IMG/VR virus record: IMGVR_UViG_3300046675_000069
Span: 1 to 43,436 of that record
Direction: 5' to 3' (one strand)
DNA: 43,436 nucleotides
Source of the DNA: a virus
The notes under the pieces are model-generated. The model searched no databases and was not told the DNA's origin. It saw only the letters and a program-made list of their open reading frames with translations. This document shows, in pieces, positions 11,002-42,284 of the stretch. The translations under genes were made by a program, and so were the position numbers. The stretch's first letter is position 1. Each line of letters opens with the position of its first letter.

Positions 11002-11238
11002 ATGCCCGAGTTTACCGTTGACGTCATCGTCGATGCGCCGCCGGTCACCGAAATTGACGTTTCGATCGACGGACCCGGCGCCGTCGTTTCCGTCGATGTC
11101 GAATTCGCGCCGGCGCCGCCGATCTCGATCGACATCGAGGCCGCGACCGGCCTGCCGGGACCAGCGGGCGGCTCGGGTCCCGCCGGTCCGCCTGGACCGC
11201 CCGGCTCGGGCGGCGACTTCGACGGGGGGAACTTCTAG
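11002..11238 (+). CDS. Short collagen-like fibre-associated protein
   Basis: This 78-residue protein has two parts. Residues 1 to ~50 alternate acidic and hydrophobic residues (EFTVDVIVDAPPVTEIDVSI), consistent with beta structure. Residues ~52-72 are collagen-like Gly-X-Y triplets (GPAGPPGPPG), then Asp/Gly-rich. Collagen triplets are common trimerisation stalks in phage fibres. Its TAG shares a base with the GTG start of the large fibre downstream, so it may act as a separate connector or neck of that fibre. A GTG seven bases upstream is an alternative start. Confidence 0.65.
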   Translation: MPEFTVDVIVDAPPVTEIDVSIDGPGAVVSVDVEFAPAPPISIDIEAATGLPGPAGGSGPAGPPGPPGSGGDFDGGNF

Positions 11239-12668
11239 TGGCTGACATCCTACGCATTAAACGCCGCAACAGCGGCGCCCCCGGCGCGCCCCCAAGTCTC
11301 GCGAACGCCGAGATCGCGTATAATGAGGTCGATCACGTTCTTTATTACGGCGAGGGAACGGGCGGCGCGGGCGGCACCGCCTCCGTCGTCGTGCCGATCG
11401 GCGGCATGGGGACCGCGTCGAACGCCCCGCCGCTCATGGATGGCACCGCCGCGCCGGGGGCGTCCGCGCTGCTGGCGCGCGGCGATCACGTCCATCCGAC
11501 CGACACGACCCGCGCGCCCCTGGTGTCGCCTGGGTTCTCTGGCGTGCCCACCGCGCCCACCGCCGCGCCCGGCACGACGACGACCCAGATCGCGACGACC
11601 GCCTTCGTTGACGCGATCACGCCGCTGCCATCCGGCGGTCTGCCGCTGATGGATGGCGTCGCCTACGCCGGCGCGCTCGCCGCTTGGTCGCGCGGTGACC
11701 ACGTTCATCCGACCGACACGACCCGCGCGCCGATCAACTCGCCGAACTTCACCGGAGTCCCGACCGCGCCGAACCCGCCGAACGGCACGGACACACAACA
11801 ACTCGCGACGACGTCCTATGTCCTCGCGACCCGCCTCGATCAGTTCCTTCCGCCGAATACGGACGTCAACTGGGCGAGCCACAAGATCACCGGACTGGCC
11901 GACCCGACGCAGGGTCAGGACGCCGTCACGAAGTCTTACGTTGACGCGATCGCGCAAGGGATCGACGCCAAGGCCAGCGTGCGCGCCGCCTCGACGGCGA
12001 ACGTCGCCGTCATGTCGGGCACCACGACGATCGACGGCGTCGCGCTGGCGATCGGTGACCGCGTGCTGCTGAAGGACCAGGCCGCGCCGCAACAGAACGG
12101 CATCTGGGTCGTGCAGGCCGGCGCCTGGGTCCGCTCGATCGACGCCGACACATGGCCGGAACTGGTCTCCGCGTTTACCTTCGTCGAGAGCGGCGCCGCG
12201 AACGCCGACGTCGGCTATACCTGCACCGTCGATCCCGGCGGCACGCTCGGCACGACGCCGGTCACCTGGGCGCAGTTCTCGAGCGCCGGCCAGGTCAGCG
12301 GCGGCGCCGGCCTGGTCAAGAACGGCAACGTGCTCGACGTCGTCGGCACGGCCGGCCGCATCGCCGTTGGCCCCGACAACGTCGATATCGACGCCGCCTA
12401 TGCCGGGCAAACCTCGATCACGACTCTGGGCAACGTGGTGACCGGGACATGGAACGCGACGACGATCGACATGGGACGCGGCGGCACGGGCACCACCGCG
12501 ATCGCGGGCGGCTATGTGACCTCGAACGGATCGACGCTGTCCTCGGTCGCCTCGATCCCCGCCGGCGGCATCTCAGGGCTGGGAACGATGTCAACGCAGA
12601 ACGCGAACGCCGTCGCGATCACCGGCGGCACGATCGACGGCGTGGTGTTTGACATGGGCACGTTCTGA
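11238..12668 (+). CDS. Tail fibre protein with duplicated GDHVHPTDTTRAP modules
   Basis: This 476-residue protein starts with GTG and an N-terminal block (DILRIKRRNSGAPGAP ... SLANAEIAYNEVDHVLYYG, residues ~3-40) nearly repeated in the next gene, probably the anchor to the virion. It then has two tandem ~80-residue modules, each with RGDHVHPTDTTRAP and a following GVPTAP and ATT.FV/ATTSYV segment, which is a common fibre shaft repeat. The later region (DAVTKSYVDAIAQGIDAKASVRAA) resembles hyaluronidase/fibre-type proteins with trimeric beta-helix. A role in adsorption is inferred. Pro/Ala/Gly/Thr content is high, as in shafts. Confidence 0.8.
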   Translation: MADILRIKRRNSGAPGAPPSLANAEIAYNEVDHVLYYGEGTGGAGGTASVVVPIGGMGTASNAPPLMDGTAAPGASALLARGDHVHPTDTTRAPLVSPGFSGVPTAPTAAPGTTTTQIATTAFVDAITPLPSGGLPLMDGVAYAGALAAWSRGDHVHPTDTTRAPINSPNFTGVPTAPNPPNGTDTQQLATTSYVLATRLDQFLPPNTDVNWASHKITGLADPTQGQDAVTKSYVDAIAQGIDAKASVRAASTANVAVMSGTTTIDGVALAIGDRVLLKDQAAPQQNGIWVVQAGAWVRSIDADTWPELVSAFTFVESGAANADVGYTCTVDPGGTLGTTPVTWAQFSSAGQVSGGAGLVKNGNVLDVVGTAGRIAVGPDNVDIDAAYAGQTSITTLGNVVTGTWNATTIDMGRGGTGTTAIAGGYVTSNGSTLSSVASIPAGGISGLGTMSTQNANAVAITGGTIDGVVFDMGTF

Positions 12669-12670
12669 CC

Positions 12671-15600
12671 TTGCCCGATCTGCTGCGGATCAAACGCCGA
12701 CCGCTCGGAGGCGCCGCCGGGGCGCCGTCGTCGCTGCTCGCCTCTGAGATCGCCTACAACGAAGTTGACGACGTGCTCTGGTATGGCAAGGGCGACAGCG
12801 GCGGTCTGGCGACCTCGATCATTCCGATCGCCGGGAGCGGGGCGTTCCCGGCGCTCGGGGATGGACGCTGGGTAAAGAAAGCCGGCGACACGATGACCGG
12901 CCCTCTGGGCATCGCCGATACTTCATCAAGTCCGTTGGTCATCCTGGGCAACCCGGTGATGCCGGGTATTCCGCCGCCCGCGCCAAGCGTCCGCTTCATC
13001 GGGGCGCACAACAACGACGGCATGTTTCTTGTCGATGCTTTTGGCAACGGCGGGTCAGGCGGCGGTGGGTTCTTCATGGCTCGCTCCACGGGAGGCGATG
13101 CGGGCGCGCCAGGCGCCGTCACCGTTGGGCAGCGTATGGGCGGGTTACGTTTCTCCGGTTATGGCACTACGGGTTACGGCGCGGCGCGTGCGGTCATCCA
13201 GGCGTTCGCGGCGGAAACCTTCACCGATGCCGCGCAAGGTGTTTATTTTAGCTTCCTCACCACGGCTATCGGGACCGTGACGCCGCTGGAGCGGCTGCGG
13301 TTGACTGATGCCGGCGCATTATTGTTACAGGTTGGTGATCCGACTGCTCCATTACAGGCGGTGCCGAAACAATACCTCGACAATAATTACAGCACGAACG
13401 CGCAGGGCGACGCACGCTGGGTCAACGTGACCGGCGACCAGATGAGCGGCGGGCTGAGTTTCGGTCAGGCCACCGTCACCAACCCCACCGATATGTCGCG
13501 GCATATCTCGCTGCATGACGGTTGGGGCGGCTTCAGCGTCACGGGCGGCGCGCTGAATTTGATCTCTGGCGCCATGCGCACGATGTCGTTCCAAGGCGCC
13601 ACCGCCACGATGGGAACGGGCGTTGGCCTGTATCTCGATCACGATCCGGTCAACGCGACGGAAGCGGTCACGTTGCAATACCTGCAAGGACAACTCGGCA
13701 ACTACCTCCCGCTGAGCGGCGGCAATTTGACTGGTGCTCTGGGGGTCGGCGGCAATCTCACGGTCGTTGGCGCCTCGTCATTCCAGAATACCGCCGTGTT
13801 TTATCCGAACAACGTCGCTGGCGCGATGGCGATGATCGTCTACGGACAACCGGCAACCACTTCAGATACCTGGGCCGGAGCGATCAACTTCCATCAAAGC
13901 GGCGGTAACAGCGAACTCGATTTCATCAACCTTTTTTCTGGAGCGGTATCCAGTTTCGAGTGGTGGCAGAATAACAGCGCGAACCAATTAACGCGCCTCG
14001 CGACGATGAAGCCCAACGGCGACTTTTATACCCTCGGGCAGGTAATCCTTGGGTCCGTCACGCCCGCGCAAGACACCAGCGCCGCCAGCAAATGGTACGT
14101 CGACAACAACACGATCAGCCCAGGCGCGGGCGACGCGCGCTGGGTGAATATTTCCGGCGACACGATGACCGGAGATTTGAACGTTAACGGCCATACCACC
14201 GTCAATCGTTTCATCTTCAACGAGCAAAACCCCGGCCCGATGGCGGGCGGCGGTTACGGCGCGCTCACATGGAACACGGACGGCGGCGGTGATGCCGCGT
14301 TCGTCAATGGATGCAACTGGGCATCGGCTGGTTTCAGTTGGTATCAGGTCGGTGCCAGCACGTGGTCGCGGATCATGTATCTGGGCAACAACGGCAACCT
14401 CGGCCTGCTTGGTTTCGGGATCAGCTACACGCTCGGCGGCGGCGGCACGAACTCCATGGGGTTCTCATGGACTGGCGGTAAAATCCACGGCTGGGTGGAC
14501 GGCAACGACCAGGGCGCGCTCGCACTAGAGAGCTGGGTCAACACCTACTTCGCGCCCAGCAGCGCGCTCGGCAACTACGTCGCGAAGGCTGGCGACACTA
14601 TGACCGGCCCGCTCACGATCAACGCCTACACGCCGCCGTGGGGCGGCTTCAACTTCGCCGCGCAACTGGTGATCACAGGCTTCCAGAACAACGGCATCGG
14701 GATATTCGATAGCAGCAACGCGAACGGCATCGGCATAATCAACGGCGCTGGCAGACTGTCATTCAACGCCATGCCGCCGCTTGGCGACAGCACGACGCCG
14801 CCGATCGAACGGCTGGGACTTTCATCGTCCGAGGCGACGTTCAGCACGCGGGTTCAGGTGAACGCCGACATCACATCATCGAATACCGTGAGCGGCAACC
14901 TGATCAACTCCGCGACCGGGCGGTTTCAGATCGCCAGCAACGCTTCCTACTATTTCGAGAGAAATAGCGGCAACGGCATATGGAACATCGTCGATGGCGG
15001 CGTCACCGTCTTCAAGGTTGACCCCGCTGATCGTGGTGGGACCGGGACTTTAGGCAACCTCACCGTCAACGGCGCGACCAGCGTCAAACAGTTCGCTTTC
15101 AGCGAGAACAACAATGGCGTCGTGCCCCCTGAAAGCGGCGCCGGTTATCTCACCTGGAACGCATCCGGCGGCAACGGCGAGGTCGATTTCATCAACGCCT
15201 ATTCCGCGTATGGCGGCTTCAATTTCCTTCAGGTGACCGGGCCGGGAACGTGGAGGAACGTGTTCCAGATTTGGCCCGATGGTAACGCAGCAGTCTATGG
15301 TCTGGGCATCTCTTACCCAGGTGTGTCGGGCGGCGGCAACACCATGGCGTTCGCCTGGTCAGGCGGCTGGATCAACGCCTGGGTTGACGGAAACTTCGTT
15401 GGTCTGTTGGCGACATCGGATTTTGTATCGGGAAATTACGTCGCGAAGGCTGGCGGAGCGATGTCGGGCGGACTGAGCTTCGGTCAGGCGACGGCTCCGA
15501 TCAACGCCGGGGATACTTCCCGACACATCACGCTGTATGACGGGTTCGGCGGGTTTAGCGTCACAGGCGGAACGATCAATATCGTCTCCAACGGCAACAC

Positions 15601-17422
15601 CGACTTCGTGGACAAAAACGGCAACCGTTTCGTAGCCATAAGCGGCAGTGGCCTGTATATGGTTGGGAACACGGACATCAATCTGGTGCGCGATCCGTCG
15701 CAACCCCTGCACGCCGCGACAAAGCAATACGTCGATGGTCTGTGGGTCATCAACGTCAAATCGTATGGTGCCACGGGAAACGGTTCCACCGATGACACGA
15801 CCGCGATCAACAACGCGGTCACGGCGGCGGGGGCTGGCAACCTCGTGTTCTTCCCGGCTGGAACCTATAAGATCACCGCGCCAATCGCGCTTCCAACTCT
15901 GGTGTCAGTCAGTGGCACGGGAGCGTCTTCGATCATCGCGCCAGCCACGGCTGGACAGGTGGCATTCTCGATGGCCCCCACCGCCATCACTGAAACGCAC
16001 AACACCATCCATGATCTGCAAATCTCCCCGACTGCTAATAACTGCATCGGTATCAAAGCAGTATTCTGTAATCACCTGAAAATATTCAACGTGACGTTCT
16101 CAGGTTGCGTTGGCAGATCAATTGATCTGGATCGTTGCCGTTATTATCTGATTGAGAATTGCCTGATCCGGTCATCCATGTCGTTTCCAGGCGGCACTCT
16201 CTTGGTTCAGTCAAGCACATGGAACAGTAGCACGGGCGGCTATCTGGGCGGCGAAGGCGAGATCTCCAACATTGAGTTCGCGCCAATGACCAATAGTCCA
16301 TTCGGTCAGGCGGACCCGTGCATCCAGCTATTCTCGCAGCCCGGAACGGCGGTGTTTAACTGCACAACCTCCTGGGGCGCTTATGCTTCTGGCCCGACCA
16401 CGCACATACTCATTCAGAACCAATGCCAGGGCAATACAATCAGGGATAACCAGGGGGAAGGCGTTTTCTGCGGTATTATCATCAACGACGGAGGCGGGCC
16501 TAATTCGGTCATGCCAAACTATATCGACCTTGAGAACAACAGTTACGATAACGTCGGCGAGATTGGCATTTTCGTCGATGGCACCGCCGCCAAGCCCGCC
16601 GACGACATCGTCATACGCGGCGGCGCGCTGACCAACATGCACTGTTCCTGCATAGCCGCCACGGTGGCCTCGGGCGGGACCGGGTTTGTTGTTGGTAACA
16701 TCATCCAGGGTCCAGATGTCGCCGCGCAGCAGCAGGGGAACCCGGTGATGCTGCAGGTCACATCCATTGGCGCGGGCGGTGCGATCACGGGCGTATCGAT
16801 TTATAACAAAGGCCTGGTGCAAACGCCCCCCGCGAACCCCGTCCCCTTCCATGGCGGCAGCGGCTCGGGCGCGACATTCAATCTGACCTACACGGGAATG
16901 GGAACCGGCATATGGTTGCGCCATGTGAACAACGCACAGATAGATGGCGTTTTCATGGAAAACTACGGCGGCGTCCGTGGCGGCGTCGGAATGATGATCG
17001 AAAGTTTATACAATGCCAGGATAACCGGAAATCAGATTACTCAGTTTGATCGTGTCCTGTATTGCCAGGACACCGCGATCTCTAACATTGTATTTGCTCA
17101 CAACACGTCTTGGAACAATAACAGCAACGATTTCGGCGGCACCATACCGACGTTTTCCGTCGTGCGGGATAATATCGGCGAAGTTGGCTGGGTCGCGGGT
17201 ACGCCGCCGGTCCCCGCATCAGGTGTGACAGTCACCAACACAGCGCCATATCCGATGCAGATTTTCATCGTCAGCGGCTCGGTGTCCGCGATCACCTATA
17301 TGGGGCAAACGCTCCCGGTCGCCGCGACAGGAAATACGATCATCCTGACGATCAATCGGCAACACACAATCGCCCTCACCTATACCGTCGCCCCAGGTTG
17401 GCTATGGGTGCCGCTGGAATGA
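12671..17422 (+). CDS. Large tailspike/fibre with C-terminal pectate-lyase-like beta-helix
   Basis: This 1583-residue protein has a TTG start two bases after the first fibre stop. Residues ~2-55 repeat the anchor of that fibre (LLRIKRRPLGGAAGAP, SEIAYNEVDDVLWYG). The shaft contains many GDTMTGPL / GDQMSGGLSFG modules typical of tail fibres, with larger internal duplications. From about residue 1028 a pectate-lyase-3/glycosyl-hydrolase-28-type right-handed beta-helix begins (VKSYGATGNGSTDDTTAINN, LVFFPAGTYKITAPIAL), consistent with a depolymerase or glycan-binding spike. The last ~60 residues form a small beta cap. The beta-helix part uses more A/T-ending codons than its neighbours, suggesting separate acquisition. 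Confidence 0.85.
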   Translation: MPDLLRIKRRPLGGAAGAPSSLLASEIAYNEVDDVLWYGKGDSGGLATSIIPIAGSGAFPALGDGRWVKKAGDTMTGPLGIADTSSSPLVILGNPVMPGIPPPAPSVRFIGAHNNDGMFLVDAFGNGGSGGGGFFMARSTGGDAGAPGAVTVGQRMGGLRFSGYGTTGYGAARAVIQAFAAETFTDAAQGVYFSFLTTAIGTVTPLERLRLTDAGALLLQVGDPTAPLQAVPKQYLDNNYSTNAQGDARWVNVTGDQMSGGLSFGQATVTNPTDMSRHISLHDGWGGFSVTGGALNLISGAMRTMSFQGATATMGTGVGLYLDHDPVNATEAVTLQYLQGQLGNYLPLSGGNLTGALGVGGNLTVVGASSFQNTAVFYPNNVAGAMAMIVYGQPATTSDTWAGAINFHQSGGNSELDFINLFSGAVSSFEWWQNNSANQLTRLATMKPNGDFYTLGQVILGSVTPAQDTSAASKWYVDNNTISPGAGDARWVNISGDTMTGDLNVNGHTTVNRFIFNEQNPGPMAGGGYGALTWNTDGGGDAAFVNGCNWASAGFSWYQVGASTWSRIMYLGNNGNLGLLGFGISYTLGGGGTNSMGFSWTGGKIHGWVDGNDQGALALESWVNTYFAPSSALGNYVAKAGDTMTGPLTINAYTPPWGGFNFAAQLVITGFQNNGIGIFDSSNANGIGIINGAGRLSFNAMPPLGDSTTPPIERLGLSSSEATFSTRVQVNADITSSNTVSGNLINSATGRFQIASNASYYFERNSGNGIWNIVDGGVTVFKVDPADRGGTGTLGNLTVNGATSVKQFAFSENNNGVVPPESGAGYLTWNASGGNGEVDFINAYSAYGGFNFLQVTGPGTWRNVFQIWPDGNAAVYGLGISYPGVSGGGNTMAFAWSGGWINAWVDGNFVGLLATSDFVSGNYVAKAGGAMSGGLSFGQATAPINAGDTSRHITLYDGFGGFSVTGGTINIVSNGNTDFVDKNGNRFVAISGSGLYMVGNTDINLVRDPSQPLHAATKQYVDGLWVINVKSYGATGNGSTDDTTAINNAVTAAGAGNLVFFPAGTYKITAPIALPTLVSVSGTGASSIIAPATAGQVAFSMAPTAITETHNTIHDLQISPTANNCIGIKAVFCNHLKIFNVTFSGCVGRSIDLDRCRYYLIENCLIRSSMSFPGGTLLVQSSTWNSSTGGYLGGEGEISNIEFAPMTNSPFGQADPCIQLFSQPGTAVFNCTTSWGAYASGPTTHILIQNQCQGNTIRDNQGEGVFCGIIINDGGGPNSVMPNYIDLENNSYDNVGEIGIFVDGTAAKPADDIVIRGGALTNMHCSCIAATVASGGTGFVVGNIIQGPDVAAQQQGNPVMLQVTSIGAGGAITGVSIYNKGLVQTPPANPVPFHGGSGSGATFNLTYTGMGTGIWLRHVNNAQIDGVFMENYGGVRGGVGMMIESLYNARITGNQITQFDRVLYCQDTAISNIVFAHNTSWNNNSNDFGGTIPTFSVVRDNIGEVGWVAGTPPVPASGVTVTNTAPYPMQIFIVSGSVSAITYMGQTLPVAATGNTIILTINRQHTIALTYTVAPGWLWVPLE

Positions 17423-19900: not shown

Positions 19901-20302
19901 ATGGACGCGATCGCCATCGACGGCTTCACCGAGTCACCGCTGAACCCGCGCGAACTCGACCTCGAGATCGATCCGCCGATCGAGTTTCTTAAGAAGCGCT
20001 TCACCACGCTGCACCTAGAGGAACCCACCGCGCTTCAGATGCAGCGCGCCGAGTTCGAGATCGCCGAGGCGTCGAACATGTTCACGCTGCGCCGCTATCA
20101 GATCAAACTTGTCGCCGAGGTCGCCGGCGTGCCGCGCGAGGTCGTCGAGCGAATGCGGATCAGTCAGGTGGGGGAAGCGTTCCGTTTTTTGGAACCTTAT
20201 ACGCCGCTTTTCCGGCTAACTGGCACGACCTTGTCGCCGACCTCACGCGCTGGTGGGGATGGGGACCGCATGACGCCTGGGGACTCACCGGAACCCAATT
20301 GA
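19901..20302 (+). CDS. Tail assembly chaperone, zero-frame product (Mu gp41-like)
   Basis: This 133-residue protein belongs to the phage tail assembly (TAC) chaperones that coat the tape measure before tube growth. The conserved core is TLHLEEPTALQMQRAEFEI (residues ~36-54) and LRRYQIKLVAEVAGVPREVV (~63-82). After residue ~97 the zero-frame sequence turns into an unusual Ser/Thr/Gly-rich end, as expected past a frameshift site. A second, longer product made by -1 frameshifting is described separately. A homologue occurs far away at 40509-40874. The ATG follows the tube stop by two bases. Confidence 0.85.
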   Translation: MDAIAIDGFTESPLNPRELDLEIDPPIEFLKKRFTTLHLEEPTALQMQRAEFEIAEASNMFTLRRYQIKLVAEVAGVPREVVERMRISQVGEAFRFLEPYTPLFRLTGTTLSPTSRAGGDGDRMTPGDSPEPN

Positions 20303-20367
20303 CGTGGTGGGCCGAACAATCCCAACGCATCGCGGCCCGCGAACGCGAGGCGCGGGAACAGGGCTGA
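19901..20367 (+). CDS. Tail assembly chaperone, -1 frameshift fusion product
   Basis: If ribosomes slip one base back at T-TTT-TTG (20185-20191), the first 97 codons continue in the -1 frame from 20191 for 58 more codons to the TGA at 20365-20367, giving a ~155-residue protein. The new end contains ANWHDLVADLTRWWGWGP and LTWWAEQSQRIAAREREAR, a Trp-rich then helical tail of the kind seen in T-domain extensions that bind the tape measure protein. It ends just before the tape measure ATG at 20374. This arrangement is conserved in many long-tailed phages; slippage itself is not demonstrated here. Confidence 0.7.
20185..20191 (+). other. Putative -1 ribosomal frameshift slippery heptamer
   Basis: The heptamer T TTT TTG is in the zero frame of the tail assembly chaperone (codons CGT TTT TTG), a standard X XXY YYZ arrangement. 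It lies at codons 95-97. Downstream GC-rich sequence could fold, but I did not establish a specific stem-loop or pseudoknot. Confidence 0.7.
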
Positions 20368-20373
20368 CCTGAC

Positions 20374-22608
20374 ATGGCCGGCTATTCCGTCACCTTCTCC
20401 GTCGTCGATAACGCGACGAAACAGATCGACGCGATCAACCGCCGGATCGCGCAGATGCGCGCGCCGATGGAACGCCTCTCGCGTCAGGTGACCCGCTTCG
20501 TCGATGTCTCCGGGCTGCGCAAGGTCGCCCAGGGCTTCGAGTGGATCGGCAAGACGGCGGGGACCGTGCTGAGCACGCTGACCTCGATCGTGCCGCAGAT
20601 GGCCGCGATCACCGGCGCCGCCTCGATCGCCGGCATGACGAAGCTGGTCTCGAATTACGCCGCGTGGTCGCGCGAACTTGTCGCCGCCGCCGACAACATC
20701 GGCATCACGACACGGGAGTTGCAAAAATTCGAGGACGCGACCCGGCTCGCCGGCGGCAGCGCCGCCGAGATGCGCGAGAGCCTCAAGGGCCTGCATGACA
20801 ACCTCGCCGACCTCAACATCGGCCGCGGCAATTTCGCCGAGACCGCGCAGGCGCTCAACCTCCTCGGCGTCAACGCGCGCGACACGACCGGGCATATGCG
20901 ATCCGCCGCCGACCTCATGCCCGAGGTCATCAAGAAAATCGCCGCGTTGAAGGATCCCGCCGACCGCGCGCGCCTCGCGACGATCCTGCTCGGCGGCGCC
21001 GGCGAGAAGCTGGTCGAGACGTTCCGGCAATCGACGATGGGCCTCGACGGCGCGATCGACGCCGTCAAACGCTACAAGGACCTCACCGACGAACAGAAAC
21101 GATCGCTGCAATTGTTCTCGGAGGCGCAAGGCCGCGTCGGCGTCGCGTTCGATCGCCTCGGCCAGCAATTGTCCGCGACGCTCGCGCAACACTTCGCGCC
21201 GCTGCTGAACAAGTTCGGCGAGTTCGTCGAGAAACACACGCCGGAAATCATCGCCGCCGTCGATCAAATCTCGGCGCGCTTCGCCGCGTGGCTGCAAAAG
21301 CCCGAGACGATCAAGGCGATGACCGACGGCGTCAATTCGCTGATCGACAGCCTCAAATGGGTGATCACCCACCTGGACACGATCAAGACCGCCGTCGAGG
21401 CCATCGCCGGATTGTTCGTCGTGAAATGGGCAGGGCAGGCCGTGGCCGCCGTCCAGGCGCTGACCGGGGCGATCGGCCTCGCCGCCGGCGTATCCGGCGC
21501 CACGCTCGCCGCCGCGCTCGCCGGCATCGCCGCCATCGTCGGCCTGCTGGCGCTCGGGTCCGCGTACGAGACGCCGGAAACCCGCGCCGCGCGCGAAAAG
21601 AACCGCAAGGACCAGGACACGCGCTCGCCGACCAATACGCCAACGTCCGATTATTGGATCGACTCGCAGGGGCGGAAGCACGACGCGACGACCGGCGAGA
21701 TCATCGGCGCCTCGCCGTCCCGCTCCACCGGCGGCTATCTGCCCGGCGGCGTCACCCCCGCCGCGTATCAGGCGGGCGGCGCCGCCGCGCGCCAGCCGAT
21801 CGAGTTCTGGCTCGACATGACCCGCGCCGTATCCGCCGGCTTCGAGGATGCGTTCAACCATCTGCGCGACACCGGCGGCGCCGGCGCCGTGGGCGCGGCG
21901 GGGGGCGGCGCGCCGGGCGTCGTCGCGGCTTCCTACACGCCCGCCGACCGGCCCGCCCTCGGCCCCTCCGGGGGCGGTGGCGGGGTCACCGGCGGCAGCG
22001 GGGGCGGCGCGGGCGGCATCGACGCGCCGGCCGGCACGCCGATCGCCAGAACCGGGCTGGCGACCGTCACCTCGGCGAGCGGGCGCAAGTATCAGGTCGA
22101 TGCGCGGTTCGCGCAGAACTTCCAGGGCTTCATCAACGACTATGAGAAAGCCGGCGGTGTGCTCGGACCCGACAGCGGCACGCTCGGCGAACGGCCGAAC
22201 AACGCCAGCGGTCATCCGATCGGCGCCGCCATCGACATCAACCAGATCGGTCGCGGTGTGCGCAGCCGGCGCGGGGTTTCCCTCGACCCCCGGCTCGAGG
22301 ACGAACTCGCGAAACGATGGGGATTCGTCTCGGGCAATTCCTGGCGCTCCAACGACCAAGGTCATTTCGGCATCGAGAGCGTCGAGGCGGCGCGCCGCGC
22401 CTTGCTCAATAGCGGCGGTCGGATCGCGGCCCCCGCCGCCGCCGCGCCGCCCCTCGCCGTGCCCGGCGCGAAACCGATCAACGGCTCTGTCGATGTCAAT
22501 ATAACGCACCGCAATCCACCGCCGAATTCCGCCGTCACCGCGAGCGGATCCGGCGCCGTCAACGTCGCGCCGCCGCGCGTCGAATATCAGAACATGGCGT
22601 CGATATGA
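20374..22608 (+). CDS. Tail tape measure protein with C-terminal M15-like peptidase domain
   Basis: This 744-residue protein sets tail length and travels into the cell during infection. Residues 1-340 are mostly helical (AINRRIAQMRAPMERLSRQV; LQKFEDATRLAGGSAAEM), residues ~350-398 form long hydrophobic segments (KWAGQAVAAVQALTGAIGLA), and ~400-560 are Gly/Pro-rich linkers. Residues ~565-670 resemble peptidase M15: ASGHPIGAAIDIN supplies His614 and Asp621, and SNDQGHFGIE supplies His664, the three zinc ligands. This would allow local peptidoglycan cutting during DNA entry. It begins six bases after the frameshift product ends and overlaps gp43 by four bases. Confidence 0.88.
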   Translation: MAGYSVTFSVVDNATKQIDAINRRIAQMRAPMERLSRQVTRFVDVSGLRKVAQGFEWIGKTAGTVLSTLTSIVPQMAAITGAASIAGMTKLVSNYAAWSRELVAAADNIGITTRELQKFEDATRLAGGSAAEMRESLKGLHDNLADLNIGRGNFAETAQALNLLGVNARDTTGHMRSAADLMPEVIKKIAALKDPADRARLATILLGGAGEKLVETFRQSTMGLDGAIDAVKRYKDLTDEQKRSLQLFSEAQGRVGVAFDRLGQQLSATLAQHFAPLLNKFGEFVEKHTPEIIAAVDQISARFAAWLQKPETIKAMTDGVNSLIDSLKWVITHLDTIKTAVEAIAGLFVVKWAGQAVAAVQALTGAIGLAAGVSGATLAAALAGIAAIVGLLALGSAYETPETRAAREKNRKDQDTRSPTNTPTSDYWIDSQGRKHDATTGEIIGASPSRSTGGYLPGGVTPAAYQAGGAAARQPIEFWLDMTRAVSAGFEDAFNHLRDTGGAGAVGAAGGGAPGVVAASYTPADRPALGPSGGGGGVTGGSGGGAGGIDAPAGTPIARTGLATVTSASGRKYQVDARFAQNFQGFINDYEKAGGVLGPDSGTLGERPNNASGHPIGAAIDINQIGRGVRSRRGVSLDPRLEDELAKRWGFVSGNSWRSNDQGHFGIESVEAARRALLNSGGRIAAPAAAAPPLAVPGAKPINGSVDVNITHRNPPPNSAVTASGSGAVNVAPPRVEYQNMASI

Positions 22609-33304: not shown

Positions 33305-33571
33305 TCACCATCCGATCCGCTCGCGATCGAGCACGTTCTCGCCCTCGCCGCGCGCCTCGGCTTCCCACCGCTCCGCCTGCCGATCGAGCGACGCCGCCGC
33401 CTGCCAGCGCGTTACCTTCCTGTCAGGCCCGCCGATCGAGGTCAGGCCGATCGAACCCCAACCCGCCGCCGCCTCGGCCCGCAGATCGCGCGCCATCTTC
33501 CGGCACGCCGTCGCCATGCTCGCCGGGTTGAGCGGGTAATACTGGACGCGCCTGTCGTATCGGGCGGTCAC
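33305..33571 (-). CDS. Hypothetical early-operon protein
   Basis: This 88-residue protein starts with GTG overlapping the stop of the membrane microprotein upstream. It has a helix SMATACRKMARDLRAEAAAG and a charged C-terminal helix LDRQAERWEAEARGEGE, with a TSIGGPDRKVTRW strand between. It is not recognised; the composition suggests a soluble, possibly oligomeric protein. Confidence 0.5.
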   Translation of the reverse strand: MTARYDRRVQYYPLNPASMATACRKMARDLRAEAAAGWGSIGLTSIGGPDRKVTRWQAAASLDRQAERWEAEARGEGENVLDRERIGW

Positions 33572-33657
33572 AGCGCGCCGACCAGCGCGATCGTCAGCAA
33601 GGCGATCCCGGCCCAGATGATCGCCGCCAGCACGACCAGCATCAGCAACCGCTCCAT
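33568..33657 (-). CDS. Single-helix membrane microprotein
   Basis: The 29-residue product is essentially one transmembrane helix (LLMLVVLAAIIWAGIALLTI). It has an ATG three bases after the upstream stop and its TGA overlaps the GTG of the next gene, so it fits exactly into the coupled operon with no other gene in the gap. Such one-helix proteins in phage early regions may act on host membrane proteins; none can be named. Confidence 0.5.
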   Translation of the reverse strand: MERLLMLVVLAAIIWAGIALLTIALVGAL

Positions 33658-33659
33658 GC

Positions 33660-33935
33660 TCAATGCGCCCCGTGCGGGCCGGGCCCTTCCGCCAGAACCG
33701 TCAACAGCGCGCGACCGAGGTGCTCGAGATCGCCGGCCAGTGGTCCCATGTGACCCGATTTCAGAACCAGCGTATCGGCGAGCCAGCGGGTTTCCTCGAT
33801 CGTGAACGCCGCCGTCGTCTCGCCGATCGTGAACATCAACATCCGCCCGGCCGGGCCGTCGATCGCCGTCGCCGTCGTGACCCGCAACTCGACTTGGCGC
33901 TCGGCGGCCGTGTAGGCCATGATCAACGCCGTCAT
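33660..33935 (-). CDS. Hypothetical early-operon protein
   Basis: This 91-residue protein alternates strands in the first half (VELRVTTATAIDGPAGRMLMFTI-type pattern, residues ~14-45) and is helical later (LAGDLEHLGRALLTVLAEG). ETRWLADTLVLKSGHMGPLA lies between. No family recognised; no membrane segment. The ATG overlaps the upstream stop, which fits operon coupling. The His-rich end GPGPHGAH is unremarkable. Confidence 0.5.
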   Translation of the reverse strand: MTALIMAYTAAERQVELRVTTATAIDGPAGRMLMFTIGETTAAFTIEETRWLADTLVLKSGHMGPLAGDLEHLGRALLTVLAEGPGPHGAH

Positions 33936-34171
33936 GCCCCCCGGTCGAAGCTGGTGCCGGGGGTTAGCGCGGTCGTCGGGTAGAGCATGTCGGCGACCAG
34001 TCGCGCGCCGCGAAGGCCGCGAGCGTCGCGCGTAAAGAACTCATCGCAGACCGGGCACTTGTCGATCATCAGCCCGCCGCCGGCCGCCGGCACGATCACG
34101 TAGCCGTCAACGCCCGCTACAATCTTCAGTCCGTCGCTGCGCTCATTCGCCCGCCACCGTTCCTCGACCAT
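33932..34171 (-). CDS. Hypothetical protein with CPVC motif
   Basis: This 79-residue protein contains DKCPVCDEFFTRDARGLRGA around residues 37-56, half of a possible zinc site, with no clear second Cys pair. The N-terminal part VDGYVIVPAAGGGLM is beta-like. It overlaps the upstream gene by 29 bases and the downstream one by four. Function is unknown. It may be a broken or single-knuckle zinc protein. Confidence 0.5.
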   Translation of the reverse strand: MVEERWRANERSDGLKIVAGVDGYVIVPAAGGGLMIDKCPVCDEFFTRDARGLRGARLVADMLYPTTALTPGTSFDRGA

Positions 34172-37317: not shown

Positions 37318-37566
37318 ATGCGACACGACCGGATCATCGATCTTTTCGGCGGCAACATGGCCCTGTCGAAGCTCGTCGGGCGCAGCGACAGCGCGATTTC
37401 CCGCTGGCGCGACAACGGCATTCCCCCGGCGTTCTGGCCGCTGATCCTCGACCTCGCCGACGCCCACGGCCTCGCCGACCAGATCACGATCGAGGAACTT
37501 CGCGCCGGCCTCCCCCGCGACAGCCGCTACCGCGCCGGAAAACGTCCAGCCCGATCGCTGGCCTGA
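37318..37566 (+). CDS. Cro-like / YdaS-type HTH regulator
   Basis: This 82-residue protein starts RHDRIIDLFGGNMALSKLVG and continues RSDSAISRWRDNGIPPAFWP, the helix-turn-helix of the Cro/YdaS type in which a short recognition helix reads S-A-I-S-R-W. The basic C-terminus (RYRAGKRPARS) suits DNA binding. It is divergent from the CI-like repressor and heads the rightward early operon, the usual position of Cro. Longer upstream readings run through the operator region and are rejected. Confidence 0.75.
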   Translation: MRHDRIIDLFGGNMALSKLVGRSDSAISRWRDNGIPPAFWPLILDLADAHGLADQITIEELRAGLPRDSRYRAGKRPARSLA

Positions 37567-39419: not shown

Positions 39420-40073
39420 ATGTCCGGTCTCCCCTGGGGCAAATTCTTTTGGAAGGACTGGCTCACCGACCCGGCTTTGTCGGTGTGCTCGCTCGCCGCT
39501 CAGGGCCTCTGGATGCGCATGCTCTGCATCATGTCGATGTCGGAACCGCCGGGCCATCTGATCCTGCCGCCGACGCGCCGCGCGATGAGTGAGGCAAAGC
39601 ATGTAGCCGGCATGTGTCACGCAGATGCAAGGCAAGTGCGCCCTCTCCTGGATGAGCTTGAAACGCGGAAGGTCTTTAGCCGCGACAACGCCGGAACGAT
39701 CGTCTCGCGCCGGATGATCAGAGAGGCTGAACTTTCGACCAAAGGCCGCTCGAATGCGACGAAAAGATGGAACAAACCCAATGGCCACCCCAATGGCCAC
39801 CCCAATGGGGACCCCAATGGGGATGGCTATGGCCCCGACACGCTGACCCCAATGGCCGACCCAATGCTTAGAACAGATACAGATAAAGACTCCCCCCCTA
39901 AGCGCCCCCGCAAATCCCGTCGCTCGACGCATGCCGCCCCCGACTTCCGGAGCGGGTTCGGCTCGAGTGCCGACGCTGACATGCAGGAGACCCTCGACCA
40001 TGCCACCGCAACAGACCCACGTCCGCACCGTGCGACAGTGGTGCCAATCGCTCGGCATCTTGAGCGCCGTTAG
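39420..40073 (+). CDS. Replication initiator/replisome-organizer-like protein
   Basis: This 217-residue protein looks like a phage replication protein with an N-terminal winged helix: LPWGKFFWKDWLTDPALSVC, then SLAAQGLWMRMLCIMSMSEP, and later LLDELETRKVFSRDNAGTIV and SRRMIREAELSTKGRSNATK. This pattern is common in DnaT/replisome-organizer-type proteins at this operon position. It is followed by a repeat segment NGHPNGHPNGDPNGD, encoded by 12-base direct repeats that may be origin iterons. The C-terminal part is basic and disordered. ATG at 39420 follows the previous stop by one base. Confidence 0.65.
   Translation: MSGLPWGKFFWKDWLTDPALSVCSLAAQGLWMRMLCIMSMSEPPGHLILPPTRRAMSEAKHVAGMCHADARQVRPLLDELETRKVFSRDNAGTIVSRRMIREAELSTKGRSNATKRWNKPNGHPNGHPNGDPNGDGYGPDTLTPMADPMLRTDTDKDSPPKRPRKSRRSTHAAPDFRSGFGSSADADMQETLDHATATDPRPHRATVVPIARHLERR
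39777..39824 (+). repeat. Four tandem 12-base repeats in replication gene (iteron-like)
   Basis: Units CCCAATGGCCAC, CCCAATGGCCAC, CCCAATGGGGAC and CCCAATGGGGAT are head to tail, with a fifth related unit CCCAATGGCCGA at 39848-39859. An A/T-richer stretch (39861-39890) follows. Iterons inside the initiator gene next to AT-rich DNA recall the lambda O-type origin. Confidence 0.6.
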
Positions 40074-40512
40074 CATCTCGCGCGCCGAGGCCGAGATGAA
40101 GCTCGCCGCTTACGTGCCGCTGTTGCTCGACCGCTATCCCGTCGCCGCGTTCACGCCCGCGTCGCTCGAGTACGTCGCCGGCCGCGCGATCAAGGGCTTC
40201 CCGACCTACGCCGAACTGACCGGCTGGCTGTCCGAATGGTGGCGCGACAATCGCCCCGCGCCGCTCGCGCTGCCCGCGCCCGAGCCGGCGCCGCTGCTGA
40301 CGCGCGATCCGCCGCCGCCTGAGATGGTCGAGCATGTCCGCCGCGTCGCCGCCGAGACGATCGCCGCGCTGCGCGCCTCGGCGATCGCGCGCGACACGAT
40401 CGGCCGATCGCTCGACGCCGGCCGGCTCGAGCCGCGTCCGCGCTACCTCACGCCGGAACAACTCGACCAGCACAACCCGCTTCCGAACGGTCGCAAGCGG
40501 GTGGCGTCGTGA
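40000..40512 (+). CDS. Hypothetical protein, probable replication-associated
   Basis: This 170-residue protein starts at ATG 40000, preceded by AGGAG about ten bases upstream, and overlaps the initiator gene by 74 bases. It contains VRTVRQWCQSLGILSAVSIS, EAEMKLAAYVPLLLDRYPVA, and AIKGFPTYAELTGWLSEWWR. The remainder is Pro/Ala-rich with helix VEHVRRVAAETIAALRASAI. The position after a replisome-organizer gene would suit a helicase loader partner, but no AAA motifs (no Walker A) are present. I do not recognise a family. Confidence 0.6.
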   Translation: MPPQQTHVRTVRQWCQSLGILSAVSISRAEAEMKLAAYVPLLLDRYPVAAFTPASLEYVAGRAIKGFPTYAELTGWLSEWWRDNRPAPLALPAPEPAPLLTRDPPPPEMVEHVRRVAAETIAALRASAIARDTIGRSLDAGRLEPRPRYLTPEQLDQHNPLPNGRKRVAS

Positions 40513-40874
40513 GCGCGTTACCGCCGCGTCTGCGGGTGATGCTGTCGAAGCCGGTGACGTATCGCGGAAAAGTCTATGACCGCGTCAACCTACGCGAGCC
40601 GACCGCCGCCCAGATGGAAATGGCCGAACGGGAACTGGACTTCGCCGATGGCTCGGTAACCGTGCTGAATATGCGCCGCTACCAGATCGCGTTCATCGCG
40701 GTGGTGGCCCGCGTGCCTCGTCCGGTCGTGATGGCAATGCGGGCGCGCGATTTTCAACGCGCCACCGACTATCTGGCCGCGTTCATGTTCCCGCCTGATG
40801 AGCCAAAGGCGATCACGCCGCCGCGCCGGCGCCGACGCAAGCCGCCGAAGTTGCGGCTGGTGACAGCGCCATGA
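40509..40874 (+). CDS. Second tail-assembly-chaperone-like protein (TAC homologue) outside the tail operon
   Basis: This 121-residue protein clearly resembles the tail assembly chaperone at 19901. Residues 28-47 (LREPTAAQMEMAERELDFAD) match its LEEPTALQMQRAEFEIAEA, and 56-75 (MRRYQIAFIAVVARVPRPVV) match LRRYQIKLVAEVAGVPREVV. The N-terminal PVTYRGKVYDRV block is also TAC-like. The C-terminus replaces the frameshift extension with a basic tail PPRRRRRKPPKLRL. No slippery heptamer was seen. It overlaps both flanking genes by four bases within the replication/regulatory operon, far from the tail genes. Function here is unknown. Confidence 0.75.
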   Translation: MSALPPRLRVMLSKPVTYRGKVYDRVNLREPTAAQMEMAERELDFADGSVTVLNMRRYQIAFIAVVARVPRPVVMAMRARDFQRATDYLAAFMFPPDEPKAITPPRRRRRKPPKLRLVTAP

Positions 40875-41173
40875 GCGATAAGATCGTTCGCATGCGGAAA
40901 CGCCAGGGCTTCGCGGTGACGGGCGACGCTGCTGAACAATCCCGCAAGAGCGCCGGGCACCGCCGCACGCGAGACGTGAAGCAACCGCGACCGGAGGGCG
41001 CGCCTTGGACCGCCGCGGAACTCGCCGCCGCGTTTCGTGTGCCGCGCAAGATCGTCGCCGCGTGGGTCCTGAAAGGTCAGATCGAAGCCATCCGCATTGG
41101 CACGTCGTTTCGGATTCCCGACCGTGTCGCGCGCCGTTTGCTGGACGGCACCGACAAGGCGCCGCCGTCATAG
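40871..41173 (+). CDS. Excisionase/MerR-like HTH protein
   Basis: This 100-residue protein has a basic N-terminus (VRMRKRQGF) and a helix-turn-helix of the excisionase type in its second half: WTAAELAAAFRVPRKIVAAW, VLKGQIEAIRIGTSFRIP and DRVARRLLDG. The G-x-I-x-A-I-R-I-G wing is the typical DNA-binding excisionase signature. It could be an excisionase, a late regulator or a DNA-binding partner of the TAC-like protein whose gene it overlaps by four bases. This is the second such HTH protein here besides 34348-34587. Confidence 0.7.
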   Translation: MSDKIVRMRKRQGFAVTGDAAEQSRKSAGHRRTRDVKQPRPEGAPWTAAELAAAFRVPRKIVAAWVLKGQIEAIRIGTSFRIPDRVARRLLDGTDKAPPS

Positions 41174-41204: not shown

Positions 41205-41378
41205 ATGCAACGTAATCCGTTCCAGTATCCGCGCCGCGCCGCGCCGCCGCTCGCGATCCCGACGCCGCCCAAGGTGGCGCGGCTGGTGCGGCCAGGACTG
41301 CCGCCTGCCGCCGTGCGCAGACCGTGCGGGCTGTGCAACCGCGTCCGCTCCTGGGTCGGCCTGGGGCCTCGGCAATGA
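41205..41378 (+). CDS. Small Pro/Arg-rich protein with CxxC
   Basis: This 57-residue protein begins QRNPFQYPRRAAPPLAIPTP and contains one CGLC pair near the C-terminus followed by NRVRSWVGLG. The strong GGAAGGAA ribosome-binding site about ten bases upstream and overlap of its stop with the next ATG support it as a real gene. No family is recognised; basic and proline-rich, perhaps nucleic-acid binding. Confidence 0.5.
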   Translation: MQRNPFQYPRRAAPPLAIPTPPKVARLVRPGLPPAAVRRPCGLCNRVRSWVGLGPRQ

Positions 41379-41587: not shown

Positions 41588-41763
41588 CCCACCTCGCCGC
41601 CGCGCAACCCGTCCGCCTGACGCTCGAACAGCGCGCCGAACAACCCGAGATCGGCGACCTGATCGGGCTGGTGATCCACTGCGACGCCGGCGTCGTCGAG
41701 GTCCACTGGCCGCGCTTCCGATCGTGGCACCGCGTCGATCAGCTCGAGGCCGTCGAACGATGA
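41584..41763 (+). CDS. Small hypothetical protein
   Basis: This 59-residue protein contains RLTLEQRAEQPEIGDLIGLV followed by IHCDAGVVEVHWPRFRSWHR and ends VDQLEAVER. The G-D-L-x-G-x-V and V-E-V-x-W-x-x-x-x-x-x-x-H-x-x-D-x-L-E pattern suggests a small SH3-like beta-barrel of the type that measures DNA or RNA contacts in phage proteins, but no family is certain. Four-base overlaps on both sides. Confidence 0.55.
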   Translation: MTHLAAAQPVRLTLEQRAEQPEIGDLIGLVIHCDAGVVEVHWPRFRSWHRVDQLEAVER

Positions 41764-42284
41764 CCGGCAACGCGCCCACCGCCGCCCGGCTCAGTCACGC
41801 CGAGGCGATCGACGCGCCGCGCATCGACGCCACCGCCTTTCGCCAGGGCTGGCGCGTCCGCACGCGCCTCGACGCCTTGCTCGCCGATGGCCGCATCGAC
41901 GCGACCGCCTGGCAGTCCGCGACGGAATACCGCGACGGCTGGAGTCGCGTGCATGCGATCGGCGGCCGGTCCTGGGGCACGCGCGGCGCCGGCGCCGATC
42001 CCCATGCGCGCCTCCTCGCCGTCGCCGCGACCATGGAGCGCCTGCTTCGCGTCCAGGCCACGCTCGGCCCCGACCACGCCGGGCTGATCTACGCCTGCGT
42101 CGTCGAGGATCGCTCCTGGGCCTCGATCGCCTCGCGCCTGCATGTCAGGCGAGCCGAGACCGCACGCGATCGCACCGTCCTCGCGCTCCGCGCGCTGGCC
42201 TGGGCGTGGTCCAGAGGCCCGGCGGTGGGTTCCGCCGTGTTCGCCTACGCGCCGAAGGCTCGGCGCCGTCCAGGGTGCCTCTGA
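41760..42284 (+). CDS. HTH protein, candidate late-gene regulator
   Basis: This 174-residue protein is helical. Residues ~20-75 are TAFRQGWRVRTRLDALLADG and IDATAWQSATEYRDGWSRVH. Near residues 115-150, YACVVEDRSWASIASRLHVR followed by RAETARDRTVLALRALAWAW looks like a sigma-70 region-4-type or ArpU-like helix-turn-helix. Proteins with this layout are commonly encoded just before the HNH/terminase genes and may switch on late transcription. The reading frame beyond its TGA continues open into a repeat region (42304-42410). Start overlaps the previous stop by four bases. Confidence 0.6.
   Translation: MTGNAPTAARLSHAEAIDAPRIDATAFRQGWRVRTRLDALLADGRIDATAWQSATEYRDGWSRVHAIGGRSWGTRGAGADPHARLLAVAATMERLLRVQATLGPDHAGLIYACVVEDRSWASIASRLHVRRAETARDRTVLALRALAWAWSRGPAVGSAVFAYAPKARRRPGCL

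Follow-up and report, generated by a model that had tools for sequence, protein, structure and literature searches.

An early, basic copy of a PF10109 tail assembly chaperone without a T partner, in phages that keep a tail-module chaperone

A chaperone homologue among early genes

We analysed a small gene at positions 40509–40874 of IMG/VR virus record IMGVR_UViG_3300046675_000069, a 43.4 kb virus record whose whole stretch of 43,436 nucleotides we call the window. Judged by its gene content, the window reads as a temperate phage with a contractile-type (sheath-type) tail module. Its genes run in the order terminase, portal, capsid, sheath (PF04984), tube, chaperone, tape measure and baseplate, followed by an integrase and RecT on the minus strand, a helix-turn-helix (HTH) repressor and a rightward early operon headed by a Cro-like gene (some of these gene names derive from similarity to the annotated phage phiKM1). 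The gene under study lies among the early genes, 20 kb from the tail module. An earlier note, made from the sequence alone, had proposed that it encodes a second homologue of the tail assembly chaperone. The genes that enter this comparison are as follows.

40509–40874, + strand: early, T-less, basic copy of a PF10109 tail assembly chaperone (profile, BLASTP, AlphaFold and isoelectric point, pI)
19901–20302, + strand: resident tail-module chaperone (G frame), acidic, pI 4.8 (PF10109 E 5.9e-8; between tube and tape measure)
19993–20367, + strand: overlapping −1 frame of the tail chaperone, Trp-rich T part (..DLTRWWGWG..; frame translation)
20374–22608, + strand: basic tape measure protein (pI 9.2), with which the tail chaperone is expected to pair (PhageMin_Tail and TMP_3, both below cut-off; position after the chaperone)

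The open reading frame encodes 121 amino acids from a GTG start, with a folded core at approximately residues 7–93 and a basic C-terminal tail at approximately residues 94–121 (PPRRRRRKPPKLRLV), much as the note had described it. Its GTG overlaps the stop codon of the gene at 40000–40512, and its own stop codon overlaps the ATG of an HTH gene at 40871–41173.

Profile, sequence and fold comparisons bore out the proposed homology. The early copy matched the Pfam family PF10109 (Phage_TAC_7; E, 41 or 14 type tail assembly chaperones) with an E value of 4.8e-13 and 49.4 bits against a curated cut-off of 25, a stronger match than that of the tail copy at 19901 (5.9e-8), and it matched PHROG 166 (tail protein) at 8.7e-11. 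BLASTP aligned the two proteins with 39% identity across 92 residues (E 3e-14), and a search of the whole record (E 2.2e-12) found only two matching places, the early copy and the tail chaperone. These searches, together with the PF10109 profile, rule out a chance resemblance. AlphaFold predicted the same order of strand, strand and four helices for both proteins, with a mean predicted local distance difference test score of 85 for the early copy and 79 for the tail copy. In a viral structure library, the top Foldseek matches of the early copy were tape measure and tail assembly chaperones, with Mu FS-gp41 lower down. Against the PDB, the best Foldseek match was the HK97 chaperone, with an E value that was not significant, and a sequence-profile search of the PDB gave no meaningful match. 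We consider it almost certain, as regards identity and anatomy, that the gene is a G-type PF10109 chaperone domain outside the tail module, present as a single-gene accessory insertion.

Carriers, insertion slot and origin

Scanning viral contigs with a three-sequence alignment, we recovered 67 loci that encode a related domain. Of these, 66 lie inside a tail module or are truncated in the middle of one; the exception was the top-scoring locus, L010, in IMG/VR record G002 (28.5 kb). A further scan of viral contigs yielded L077, in IMG/VR record G001 (42.3 kb). The viral-contig scans relied on peptide patterns, which may miss divergent early copies. Both of these copies exceed the PF10109 cut-off of 25 bits (29 bits for L010 and 32 bits for L077), and both sit in an early region, shortly upstream of a homologue of the window gene at 41760–42284. 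All three carriers (the window, G001 and G002) place the early copy among early genes, 20 kb from the gap between tube and tape measure, and each also has a separate tail-module chaperone and a contractile-type tail module. Since G001 and G002 are close relatives, with early copies that are 86% identical, the three carriers represent two lineages, between which the early copies are 39–43% identical. On alignment, the early copies have in common a GTG start reading MSA, the motifs GK.YDR, EPTA, AERE and RRYQI, and an Arg/Lys-rich C-terminal tail.

Single-sequence searches of viral contigs, genome contigs, phages and plasmids found no close relative of the early copy, and two scans of genome contigs found nothing. 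Searches with the L077 copy gave weak phage matches that lay in tail genes and no plasmid match. PADLOC, with a library of 2023, matched neither the window copy nor the L077 copy to a listed defence family. Using the downstream HNH gene as an anchor, we collected 80 viral loci, 24 of which have a 41760-type gene; a chaperone-like gene was present in one of the 24 (G001 again), a carrier count that may be too low because some anchored loci are incomplete. The early copy is a rare accessory gene. We met no description of an orphan chaperone of this kind in the open-licence literature, a scope in which one published elsewhere could be missed.

The slot that the gene occupies in the window, and the head of its operon, comprise the following genes.

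37318–37566, + strand: Cro-like regulator heading the rightward early operon that includes the early copy (P22_Cro E 1.9e-4, below cut-off)
40000–40512, + strand: early gene, conserved left flank of the slot (homologues 54–64% identical in related phages)
40871–41173, + strand: small basic HTH gene (HTH_17 / excisionase-like), overlapping the stop codon of the early copy and its neighbour in the window phage only (profile matches)
41205–41378, + strand: small gene encoding a C..C motif, the slot's conserved right flank (beside the left flank in loci L006 and L123)
41760–42284, + strand: downstream early gene, a slot marker, with homologues 3' of the early copies in G001 and G002 (homology)

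In L006 and L123, the homologues of the genes at 40000 and 41205 directly adjoin, with nothing between them. The early copy of G001 lies between a VRR-NUC-like gene and a gene of 88 amino acids, and those two adjoin in locus L142. Because the flanks adjoin in relatives and the neighbours differ in G001, the early copy appears to be single-gene accessory cargo whose insertion point differs between lineages. The earlier note had linked the gene to its HTH neighbour and expected a chaperone-like gene paired with an excisionase-like HTH gene in related phages. The coupling holds in the window, where stop and ATG overlap, but only the chaperone-like gene recurs: the pair was absent from viral contigs, from G001 and from the surveyed loci. 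The HTH gene itself (HTH_17 E 0.0023 and TIGR01764 excise E 1.4e-4, both below cut-off; PHROG 10045 E 8.7e-6) has no relatives in viral contigs or in the surveyed slot loci, and with other genes beside the early copy in G001 we rule out a conserved HTH pair. A scan for the sigma-70 consensus only found no promoter-like site near the early copy; genes overlap start to stop within the early operon, and this position suggests that the gene is expressed early.

The surroundings also bear on whether the gene is a neutral relic of another tail module brought in by recombination, as the note had allowed. The region is mosaic, with variable slots, and the early copy is rare, both of which suit a relic. 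However, no other tail gene adjoins the early copy in any carrier, and the early regions of the window, G001 and G002 hold no other tail gene, which excludes a second or degraded tail operon. Moreover, the reading frame is intact in two lineages that are only about 42% identical, and every copy ends in a similar basic tail. When G001 was compared with G002, the ratio of non-synonymous to synonymous substitution rates (dN/dS) was approximately 0.32–0.38 in the core of the early copy and approximately 0.15–0.22 in the 41760-type gene (few substitutions in either case). The core value suggests that selection maintains the early copy, though under looser constraint than the 41760-type gene. We regard a relic as the least likely of the explanations weighed here, and as quite improbable.

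In a tree of 59 rows, the early copies clustered, at 98/99 support, with this phage group's RRYQI-type tail chaperones and fell outside the clades of the carriers' resident tail copies; the alignment has 102 columns, and the inner forks are poorly resolved. Forcing the early and tail copies of the window together as a pair cost 24 log units (approximately unbiased (AU) test, p 0.042), whereas the same pair with its nearest tail relative was not rejected (p 0.133). A single origin of the three early copies was likewise not rejected (p 0.41), nor, with so few columns, was it demonstrated. Recent duplication of the resident chaperone gene thus seems an unlikely source, and capture from another tail type would fit better. 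The presence of early copies in two distantly related lineages suggests that the chaperone domain has been put to a new use, as a distinct protein that acts early.

T part, charge and possible function

During tail assembly, the chaperone normally works with the tape measure and the tail tube, and its T extension recruits tail tube subunits. A T-like frame, made by frameshift, follows the tail copy; none follows the early copy in any of the three carriers, in line with the earlier observation that the frameshift site is missing. A hidden frameshift at A-runs in L010 was excluded, given that no T-like frame follows them and that L077 lacks the runs.

The early copies also differ in charge. Their pI values are 10.4–11.3 (11.3 for the window copy), against a median of 4.75 and a range of 4.3–7.1 for 80 tail chaperone sequences, not all of them independent. 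The net charge of the core is +6, +2 and +2 in the early copies, compared with −1 to −4 in tail copies of the RRYQI type and 0 to −2 in the others, and the basic C-terminal tail of the early copies carries +7 to +8. The shift affects helices 3–4 in all three copies and also the strands, most strongly in the window copy, whereas the charge of helix 2, which holds RRYQI, is unchanged. Among the tape measures of these phages, 28 of 40 are above pI 8 (median 9.25), and several in the closest clade are near neutral. A tail chaperone may coat its tape measure partly through opposite charge, and RRYQI and EPT point to a putative retained binding face in the early copy. Compared with the PF10109 tail chaperones (Mu gp41 / P2 gpE type), which it resembles in profile, motifs and predicted fold, the early copy lies outside the tail module, has no T partner, is basic rather than acidic and ends in a basic tail. 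The suggestion of a repurposed chaperone is favoured by the inverted charge and the loss of the T partner.

One possible role for such a protein would be that of an extra chaperone for the phage's own tail, which would tune assembly by supplying more of the T-less G form relative to the frameshifted GT form. It shares its family and fold with the tail copy, and all carriers have a contractile-type tail module. However, its charge is opposite to that of all tail chaperones examined, and most tape measures are basic; it is in the early rather than the late operon, its clade differs from that of the resident copy, and most relatives with the same tail lack it. Largely because of the charge, we consider this role improbable.

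The same charge is central to the nearest rival explanation, in which the fold now serves early regulation or replication and contacts DNA or RNA with its basic face and tail. Both the pI of the early copies and the charge of core and tail suit such binding, as do the replication and regulatory genes around them and, in the window, the adjoining HTH gene. Yet the HTH neighbour is not conserved, the chaperone motifs EPT and RRYQI are retained, and profile, PHROG and fold searches matched the early copy to no known nucleic-acid-binding family or fold. We judge this explanation rather unlikely; if true, it would clearly exemplify the shift of a virion-assembly fold to early regulation.

As the leading mechanism, ahead of the nucleic-acid explanation by a narrow margin, we tentatively propose that the early copy acts as a T-less chaperone mimic that interferes with the tail assembly of competing phages, which would make it an antagonist of the kind that the earlier note had listed. 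Made early, the mimic would use its retained chaperone face to join a competitor's assembly of tape measure and chaperone, or to bind the acidic chaperone itself. With the T part absent and the charge reversed, the complex would be unproductive, and the tails of co-infecting relatives would then not be built. A mimic fits the retained motifs, the lack of a part that recruits tube subunits, the distance between early and resident copies, and the precedents of Tab, Tai and Rta described below. Each of the three early copies retains EPT, RRYQI and the helix 2 charge while other parts of the surface have changed, and the accessory distribution and slot position resemble those of other phage cargo genes. 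In addition, each of the three carriers encodes a normal tail chaperone from a different clade and therefore does not depend on the early copy as its sole chaperone. With greater reserve, we suggest the fuller account that the phages' own tail chaperone has become a T-less, charge-inverted early inhibitor of competitors' tails, arisen or acquired in at least two lineages, which we regard as possible but doubtful.

Several points weigh against interference. From an early-operon gene that lacks its own promoter-like site, the protein would also reach the tails of the phage that encodes it, unless tails of that type are immune. The case of Tab from Pseudomonas phage JBD26 is different, with expression from the prophage under its own promoter and a late antidote (PMC10884400, in excerpt). 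In addition, the Arg/Lys tail and the basic core would suit a protein that binds nucleic acid, and the early copy is absent from most phages of the same tail type. PADLOC, with a library of 2023, matched neither the window copy nor the L077 copy to a listed defence family.

The known systems closest to this proposal are considered here from excerpts of three papers. Tab acts through the tape measure (PMC10884400); like the early copy, if the mimic mechanism is right, it is a small accessory phage gene acting at the step of tape measure and chaperone. The excerpt does not describe Tab as a chaperone homologue, and the early copy is instead an early-operon gene, with no antidote identified, although no search aimed at one was made. 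Tai proteins of phages and phage-inducible islands block tail assembly (PMC11364771) and are likewise encoded by accessory (moron) genes; these lie mostly upstream of packaging genes, and the excerpt states no chaperone homology. The satellite PLE11 restricts tail assembly through Rta, which is escaped by mutations in the tape measure and which has no characterised homologues according to the excerpt (PMC12987554). In these excerpts, Tab, Tai and Rta are not described as chaperone-derived. Vibrio satellites also have PLE-coded tmp-tac genes (tape measure and chaperone), in which, as would hold here under the mimic mechanism, tail assembly is altered by a chaperone encoded elsewhere than in the tail operon of the phage itself; the PLE chaperone, however, is encoded together with a tape measure of its own and gives rise to chimeric tails (PMC12987554, in excerpt), whereas the early copy stands alone in a complete phage. 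Here, a chaperone domain with inverted charge stands by itself among early genes, in phages that have retained the normal copy. If interference is true, a structural helper has been turned into a weapon, an inhibitor derived directly from the assembly machinery, which would take its place beside Tab, Tai and Rta. Whether it interferes with tails or binds nucleic acid, a PF10109 match alone need not mean a tail gene, which is a warning for annotators.

Tail modules of the phage group

The survey gave further observations on the tail genes. Komagataeibacter phage phiKM1 (LC644974; locus L005) has a tail chaperone gene at 33511–34086 with a tandem pair of PF10109 domains, at 33526–33741 (below cut-off) and 33829–34053; the copies in the window are single-domain. 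The order of sheath, tube, chaperone and tape measure is broken in several relatives by extra genes or gaps of several hundred bases: at 2782–3567 in L079, between chaperone and tape measure in L014, L024, L028, L037 and L040, and between tube and chaperone in L015. The interrupting gene of L079 looks by eye like an HNH-type nuclease, so some of these interruptions may be homing genes. In record G014 (83.5 kb; loci L037 and L038), two complete tail modules from this group of phages lie approximately 40 kb apart; they represent either two neighbouring prophages or a joined assembly.

Within the window, the C-terminal part of the tape measure (20374–22608) weakly matches a peptidase M15 domain (E 7e-4, below cut-off). 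At 11238–17422, two neighbouring large genes of 476 and 1583 amino acids have similar starts (ADILRIKRR.. and PDLLRIKRR..), and the pair looks like a tandem duplication of a fibre-type gene.
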